Virus record (IMG/VR): IMGVR_UViG_3300010370_000038
Location: 1 to 64,000 of that record
DNA: 64,000 bases
Reading direction: 5' to 3' (one strand)
From: a virus
Position numbers and translations under genes: made by a program. Below are positions 807 through 1,062 of this stretch, piece by piece. The notes beneath the pieces were generated by a model. That model searched no databases. It had not been told where the DNA came from and saw only the letters and a program-made list of their open reading frames with translations. Numbering within the stretch: the stretch's first letter is position 1; every line of letters starts with the position of its first letter.

Positions 807-899
807 GGAAGTGTAGCTCAATTGGCAGAGCGAGAAGCTTATACCTTCTGTATGCACCAGATTAGTGCGCGGTTGGGGGTTCGACTCCCTCCACTTCCA
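807..899 (+). tRNA. tRNA with long variable arm, anticodon reads TAT (Ile?)
   Basis: It folds with a perfect 7-bp acceptor (GGAAGTG/CACTTCC), D arm GCTC/GAGC, anticodon stem AGAAG/CTTCT with loop CTTATAC, and T arm GGGGG-TTCGACT-CCCTC. Positions 34-36 read TAT, which would decode AUA as isoleucine. The region between anticodon and T arms is about 25 nt and holds its own hairpin TGCAC/GTGCG, a class II feature normally limited to Leu, Ser and Tyr tRNAs. The isotype is therefore uncertain. The CCA end is not encoded. Confidence 0.75.
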
Positions 900-901
900 T
901 T

Positions 902-974
902 GCTCCTTTAGCAATCTGGTGAATGCACCGAACTCATAATTCGGCTAAGGTGGGTTCGATCCCCTCAAGGAGCA
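902..974 (+). tRNA. tRNA-Met(CAT) or Ile2(CAT)
   Basis: Acceptor GCTCCTT/AAGGAGC, anticodon stem CCGAA/TTCGG with loop CTCATAA giving anticodon CAT, and T loop TTCGATC. Length is 73 nt. CAT could be elongator Met or lysidine-modified Ile2; the sequence alone does not decide. Confidence 0.9.
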
Positions 975-978
975 CCTC

Positions 979-1062
979 GGGACGGTGGCGGAATAGGTAG
1001 ACGCACCAGACTTAAAATCTGTTGGGCAATTGCCCGTGGGGGTTCGATTCCCCCTCGTCCTA
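979..1062 (+). tRNA. tRNA-Leu(TAA)
   Basis: Acceptor GGGACGG pairs with TCGTCCT. The D-loop GGTAGACGC is typical of tRNA-Leu, the anticodon loop is CTTAAAA (anticodon TAA), and a class II variable arm (GGGCAATTGCCC) is followed by T arm GGGGG-TTCGATT-CCCCC. It decodes UUA, a codon favoured by AT-rich phage genes. Confidence 0.92.

Follow-up and report, generated by a model that had tools for sequence, protein, structure and literature searches.

The usual anticodon of isoleucine tRNAs is GAU, and bacterial isoleucyl-tRNA synthetase (IleRS) reads G34, A35 and U36 and does not normally accept U34. AUA codons are decoded in bacteria by a tRNA with a lysidine-modified CAU anticodon (tRNA-Ile2), and ordinary class I tRNAs with a UAU anticodon are rare in bacteria. 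To our knowledge, in known tRNAs whose identity is read from the anticodon, synthetase and ribosome rely on one and the same triplet. Isoleucine identity was located in the anticodon and the discriminator base A73 (PMC9976931), and unmodified C34 precludes isoleucylation (PMC11938285), while in Mycoplasma mobile decoding by a tRNA-Ile with U34 required mutations in IleRS, the E. coli ribosome showing no preference for AUA (PMC4014445). UAU tRNAs with an additional arm were described in nematodes (nev-tRNAs; PMC4300185), and UAU is among the commonest anticodons of the 8/4 allo-tRNAs (PMC7609411). Here we describe a tRNA gene at positions 807–899 of a 64,000-nucleotide (nt) window, the whole stretch of DNA that we analysed, which corresponds to positions 1 to 64,000 of IMG/VR virus record IMGVR_UViG_3300010370_000038 (64,875 bases; its relatives are Synechococcus phages). 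The encoded tRNA-Ile(UAU) contains, besides its anticodon arm, a second anticodon-like arm whose loop is centred on GAU, and this is a real and widespread phage tRNA architecture, of which we found no description in the open-access literature.

The original prediction described a clean cloverleaf with a TAT anticodon and a 25-nt arm carrying a TGCAC/GTGCG hairpin, and ARAGORN, the Rfam tRNA model and a single-strand fold all confirm it. ARAGORN called a tRNA-Ile with anticodon tat at 806–900, and the covariance-model scoring proposed as a check gave a full-length, untruncated match of RF00005 to 807–899 (model positions 1–71, 58.2 bits against a gathering score of 29, E 5.4e-10), which exceeds the scores of both neighbouring tRNAs. 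The fold contains the four canonical stems (acceptor, D, anticodon and T) and, in addition, the extra hairpin; the anticodon loop CTTATAC lies at 838–844, and the 25-nt insert, at 850–874, includes a stem formed by 853–857 with 865–869. Minimum-energy folding recovered both arms for the window tRNA and not for every relative, as is usual with single tRNA sequences.

Homologues in other cyanophages, proposed as a check, were found by BLAST in Synechococcus phage DSL-LC02, where a sequence identical in 93 of 93 positions carries no annotated feature, and in SynMITS9220M01, where 92 of 93 positions are identical and the gene is annotated as tRNA-Ile. The two-arm family extends to more than 100 IMG/VR contigs. 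A scan of IMG/VR with the window hairpin and a fixed anticodon matched 51 contigs, and when the anticodon was left free the same hairpin returned these 51, one further UAU tRNA and one repeat that is not a tRNA. Among phages of Gammaproteobacteria, we identified the two-arm tRNA in Acinetobacter phage vB_AbaS_qsb1 and in 43 Vibrio records, including Thalassa, Luma and henriette; among those of Bacillota, in Latilactobacillus sakei phage TMW 1.1393 P1 (88.6 bits with a covariance model of the family). The design is thus common to phages of at least three bacterial phyla, with members from Cyanobacteria, Gammaproteobacteria and Bacillota, and since near-identical copies occur in DSL-LC02 and SynMITS9220M01 and the hairpin changes in a compensatory manner across unrelated phages, its occurrence is far beyond chance. 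IMG isolate-genome identifiers suggest that several of the Acinetobacter-type loci are prophages. In bacteria, the hairpin sequence of the window gave 12 matches in 84,980 genomes, none of them in a tRNA, a result that covers that one stem sequence only, and the family model found one member in 1,165 sampled genomes (L216, a 3-kb contig with nine tRNAs); as only 11–21 candidates were scored per genome, this sample does not establish rarity in bacteria.

The alignment of the family comprises 56 members, with several column counts taken on 54, and we noticed that the two arms are conserved in different ways. The first arm has an invariant UUAUA, with T33, TAT and A37 in 54 of 54 aligned members; the search patterns required CTTATA, and an anticodon-free scan made without that constraint gave the same UAU result. 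In the second arm the stem shows changes on both sides at four of its five pairs around a constant loop, in which GA is invariant and followed by U or C (56-member alignment). Over the whole structure, 96% of pairs are standard, and 355 cells of the alignment show two-sided changes, against 98 in shuffles, a count reached in 0 of 500. We also scanned with the insert left unconstrained, fixing only the D stem, CTTATA, the T loop and a spacing that allows a long insert; among the matches listed, 42 of 46 distinct inserts carry a GAU-centred hairpin loop, two carry GAC and two are unrelated. A further scan accepted any stem around GTA...GAT...CGG. The second arm is followed by five nucleotides, NGRUY, which correspond to the variable loop found behind the anticodon arm of ordinary class I tRNAs, and the architecture is therefore, with good support, that of a class I tRNA in which two tandem arms, between the D arm and the variable loop, take the place of the single anticodon arm. 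The D stem has four base pairs (bp), with C13-G22 (47 of 54 members) or U13-G22; U12-A23 is present in 56 of 56 members and A73 in 54 of 54, and these, like the isoleucine anticodon flanked by U33 and A37 (CTTATAC), are features of isoleucine tRNAs, to which the molecule would belong. C4-G69, another reported isoleucine determinant, is found in 34 of 55 members and is not found in the window tRNA.

The GAU arm is linked to the UAU anticodon. The pattern of an AGAU arm with UAU fits 128 loci, some of them overlapping. Combined with any anticodon in which position 34 is not U, the AGAU arm gave a single unrelated match, a tRNA-like sequence beside a tmRNA (L217), and combined with U34 and a position 35 other than A it gave none, UAA, UAC and UAG lying outside the scan. 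Within the scans made, the GAU arm occurs exclusively with UAU anticodons. The family model separates the two-arm tRNAs, which score mostly 77–103 bits, with a lowest full-length score of 67.5, from ordinary tRNAs, which score at most 64; L177, a candidate for a GAU arm, falls below this gap at 55.9 bits, and L176, a tRNA-Ile(TAT) whose 22-nt insert has no GAU loop, is not a member. Of the ordinary tRNAs in the first 58 loci, tRNA-Ile(GAT) genes (L074:827 and L087:5318) match the model best. When one arm was removed at a time, the nearest isotypes of the remainder were mixtures of Met, Lys and Ile, an outcome that singles out no isotype.

Bacterial tRNA-Ile(GAU), or tRNA-Ile1, shares with the two-arm tRNA U12-A23, A73, the class I D arm and variable loop, and GAU itself. 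The two-arm tRNA differs from it in that an extra UAU arm separates the D stem from the GAU arm and in that the GAU loop mostly lacks U33. In some members the likeness is closer: the second loop of L152, L108, L125 and L160 reads CUGAUAA, which is also the most frequent loop in phage tRNA-Ile(GAU) (ctgataa in 20 of 33), and the Acinetobacter arm AACGA-CAGATAA-TCGGC is close to AACGA-CCGATAA-TCGTT, the arm of a tRNA-Ile(GAT) that adjoins the two-arm tRNA in Vibrio phage Thalassa. With tRNA-Ile2 (CAU with lysidine or ava2C) it would share the status of an isoleucine tRNA for AUA; however, the window and its relatives encode TAT and not CAU, so that there is no C34 on which TilS could act and identity would come from an arm instead of a modified base. 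The tRNA-Ile(UAU) of M. mobile and of some lactobacilli likewise has a UAU anticodon and reads AUA without lysidine; the M. mobile system relies on a mutated IleRS and an adapted ribosome and not on a second arm (PMC4014445).

We hypothesize that the host IleRS recognizes the GAU arm as a surrogate identity element for isoleucine and that the UAU arm decodes AUA, and we regard this as the probable function. The first arm, which lacks no feature of a decoding arm, would read AUA on the ribosome, and the second would offer the synthetase the ordinary isoleucine anticodon. Since each arm is continuous with one strand of the D stem, the UAU arm through 25-26-27 and the GAU arm through 43-44, either could stack at the base of that stem, and a stacking switch may place the GAU arm there during charging and the UAU arm on the ribosome. 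In this way the phage would gain a tRNA for AUA that is independent of lysidine modification by the host TilS. Recognition of the second arm by IleRS, charging with isoleucine, the stacking switch and AUA decoding are our inferences. In six complete phage relatives, searches for PF00133 (class Ia synthetases) and PF01171 (TilS) found none, with all controls positive. AUA is rare in hosts and common in phages: it accounts for 232 of the 1,423 isoleucine codons (16%) in the long open reading frames of the window, and in Latilactobacillus prophages for 15.7% of isoleucine codons, against 4.3% in their hosts (PMC10688831), so that the phage has a use for an AUA decoder. Whether these molecules form a new structural class of tRNA, in which the synthetase identity (GAU arm) and the decoding (UAU arm) are physically separate, possibly with a stacking switch, appears to us evenly balanced. 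If so, phages would have divided the synthetase and ribosome functions over two arms, sidestepping both the lysidine step and the restriction of IleRS against U34, and a natural way of adding decoders with the synthetase unchanged would be of relevance to genetic-code engineering. The annotation of many phage genomes would also be corrected, as such genes are now listed as plain tRNA-Ile or missed. The original prediction suggested that the tRNA was novel or decaying; novelty agrees with our literature search, but decay is refuted, as all stems are paired, the loops are intact and the design persists, with compensatory changes, in over 100 contigs of phages. It also considered charging by an unexpected synthetase, which seems unlikely, given that the extra arm would point to IleRS, and so to the amino acid that the anticodon predicts, reached in an unexpected way.

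Several observations weigh against this function. Among the known determinants of IleRS is t6A37, and many second loops have U at position 37; pairing between positions 33 and 37 (A33-U37) is possible in 23 of 37 second loops (shuffle p 0.09), and given that possible pairing the second loop need not resemble an anticodon loop in space; and two members have GAC instead of GAU. Moreover, our prediction that UAU would be rare without a second arm failed: viral contigs commonly encode a class I UAU tRNA of the ordinary form that shares the GAGC D stem (at least 120 cases), and in two contigs an ordinary tRNA-Ile(TAT) directly adjoins the two-arm form (L050:2306–2378 and L074:7094–7166). The second arm is thus not universally required, and host-specific tolerance of IleRS is a possible explanation of the ordinary UAU tRNAs. 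Position 38 is C in most two-arm UAU loops, and A or T in most loops of the ordinary set, a difference that is only suggestive of a lost isoleucine determinant.

The doubts about the second loop leave room for a partner other than IleRS, such as a U34 modification enzyme, a phage or host protein or an RNA, with the isoleucine triplet being coincidental. An invariant loop on a varying stem is expected from any binder that is specific for the loop sequence, and A33-U37 pairing would in many members produce a GAU triloop instead of an anticodon-like loop; nevertheless, the triplet is exactly the isoleucine anticodon and occurs with UAU, itself an isoleucine anticodon, the second arm with NGRUY copies a normal anticodon arm with its variable loop, and the partner would have to be nearly universal, as the hosts are Cyanobacteria, Gammaproteobacteria and Bacillota. 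We consider such a partner unlikely. It is more doubtful still that both arms decode, with UAU reading AUA and GAU reading AUC and AUU, so that one tRNA would serve the three isoleucine codons. Stacking under the D stem is in principle open to either arm, given their position between that stem and the variable loop; U33 occurs in a few second loops (CUGAUAA) and is lacking in some ordinary phage tRNA-Ile(GAU) (ccgataa). Against this, U33 is missing from 48 of 54 second loops and invariant in the first, and the second stem is often of 3–4 bp only among the relatives. Phages use tRNAs against tRNA-cleaving defences, and the second loop, which resembles the anticodon loop of tRNA-Ile, might be a sacrificial target for host anticodon nucleases, or the whole tRNA might sequester a host factor; yet a decoy has no need to be tied to UAU arms, the GAU arm was not found with the other anticodons scanned, and the entire tRNA, including decoding loop and acceptor, is kept intact, which makes this explanation very improbable.

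We assign a similarly small probability to the view that the molecule is a class II tRNA bearing a foreign anticodon and, like nev-tRNAs or allo-tRNAs, receives Leu, Ser or Tyr, so that AUA would be partly recoded. The combination of a long insert with UAU is indeed found in nev-tRNA-Ile(UAU), which is leucine-charged in vitro (PMC4300185), and allo-tRNAs (8/4, 9/3) also have a long insert and odd anticodons, UAU being frequent in the 8/4 type (PMC7609411). Like the variable region of class II tRNAs, the insert lies between the anticodon and T arms, exceeds 10 nt and has its own helix (25 nt, 5 bp). The rest of the molecule is not of that kind, and the class II arm suggested by the original prediction is not upheld: the D arm and linker are those of class I, with a 4-bp D stem, C13-G22 or U13-G22 and NGRUY, and a 7-nt loop centred on GAU is absent from all 86 distinct Leu, Ser and Tyr variable arms of the same contigs. 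The two-arm tRNA has no class II core and comes from phage contigs, not from nematodes, and, unlike allo-tRNAs, which have a 12-bp 8/4 or 9/3 branch and G73, it has a 7-bp acceptor stem, a 5-bp T stem and A73. A decaying or chimeric pseudogene, formed by recombination of two tRNA-Ile genes, is refuted as an account of the present state by purifying selection, by compensated stems in many phages and by the full-length match to the tRNA model, and has hardly any probability left. Regarding origin, the two-arm layout would nonetheless fit a fusion of two tRNA-Ile genes: in L186 (2824–2923) the linker is longer, with TGAGAGC ahead of the second stem, and resembles the 3' end of a second D arm (GGTGAGAGCA), so that L186 may be a fusion intermediate. 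In another two-arm tRNA (L131:9815–9912), the insert has 31 nt and the linker 11 nt instead of 2–4. The elements of the window gene and its neighbours are listed in Table 1.

Table 1. Elements of the two-arm tRNA gene and of the adjoining tRNA genes (positions in the 64,000-nt window).
Feature	Positions	Strand	Evidence
Twin-anticodon-arm tRNA-Ile(UAU), whole gene, no encoded CCA	807..899	+	ARAGORN; Rfam RF00005, 58.2 bits; family model, 96 bits
Acceptor stem, 5' strand, GGAAGTG	807..813	+	Pairs with 892–898; 7/7 pairs covary in family
Class I D arm, GCTC AATTGGCA GAGC; U12-A23 invariant across family	816..831	+	Rfam model; family alignment
First (putative decoding) anticodon arm, AGAAG CTTATAC CTTCT	833..849	+	5/5 pairs covary in family
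Anticodon TAT (UAU), predicted to read AUA; U33 before, A37 after	840..842	+	ARAGORN; family alignment
Inter-arm linker, GTA; 2–4 nt in most relatives	850..852	+	Insert comparison
Second anticodon-like arm, TGCAC CAGATTA GTGCG	853..869	+	Two-sided changes at 4/5 pairs in family
GAT (GAU), centre of second-arm loop; GA invariant, then T in 52/54, C in 2/54	860..862	+	Aligned members; scan with insert unconstrained, 42/46 distinct inserts
CGGTT, equivalent of class I variable loop 44–48; family consensus NGRUY	870..874	+	Family alignment
T arm, GGGGG TTCGACT CCCTC	875..891	+	Rfam model; family covariation
Acceptor stem, 3' strand, CACTTCC, and discriminator A73 (A in 54/54)	892..899	+	Rfam model; family alignment
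Neighbouring tRNA with CAT anticodon, tRNA-Met or tRNA-Ile2	902..974	+	ARAGORN; Rfam
Neighbouring ordinary class II tRNA-Leu(TAA)	979..1062	+	ARAGORN; Rfam

The two-arm gene is the first of a cluster of three tRNA genes, followed by the CAT tRNA and then by tRNA-Leu(TAA). A gene resembling that at 902–974 is annotated as tRNA-Ile2 in phage Sf-FS3, and if the window copy were also a tRNA-Ile2 the phage would have two AUA decoders.

Other tRNA genes in the loci showed unusual features. U33 is near-universal in tRNAs, and we observed C33, in the loop CCGATAA, in four phage tRNA-Ile(GAT) genes (L213:2413–2485, L215:1413–1485, L184:951–1026 and L157:424–498). ARAGORN assigned four-base anticodons to two tRNA-like genes (L217:3758–3852, gaga, and L338:213–290, agtg) and called tRNA-Pyl for 8 of the 1,159 tRNAs in viral loci, which may be amber suppressors.
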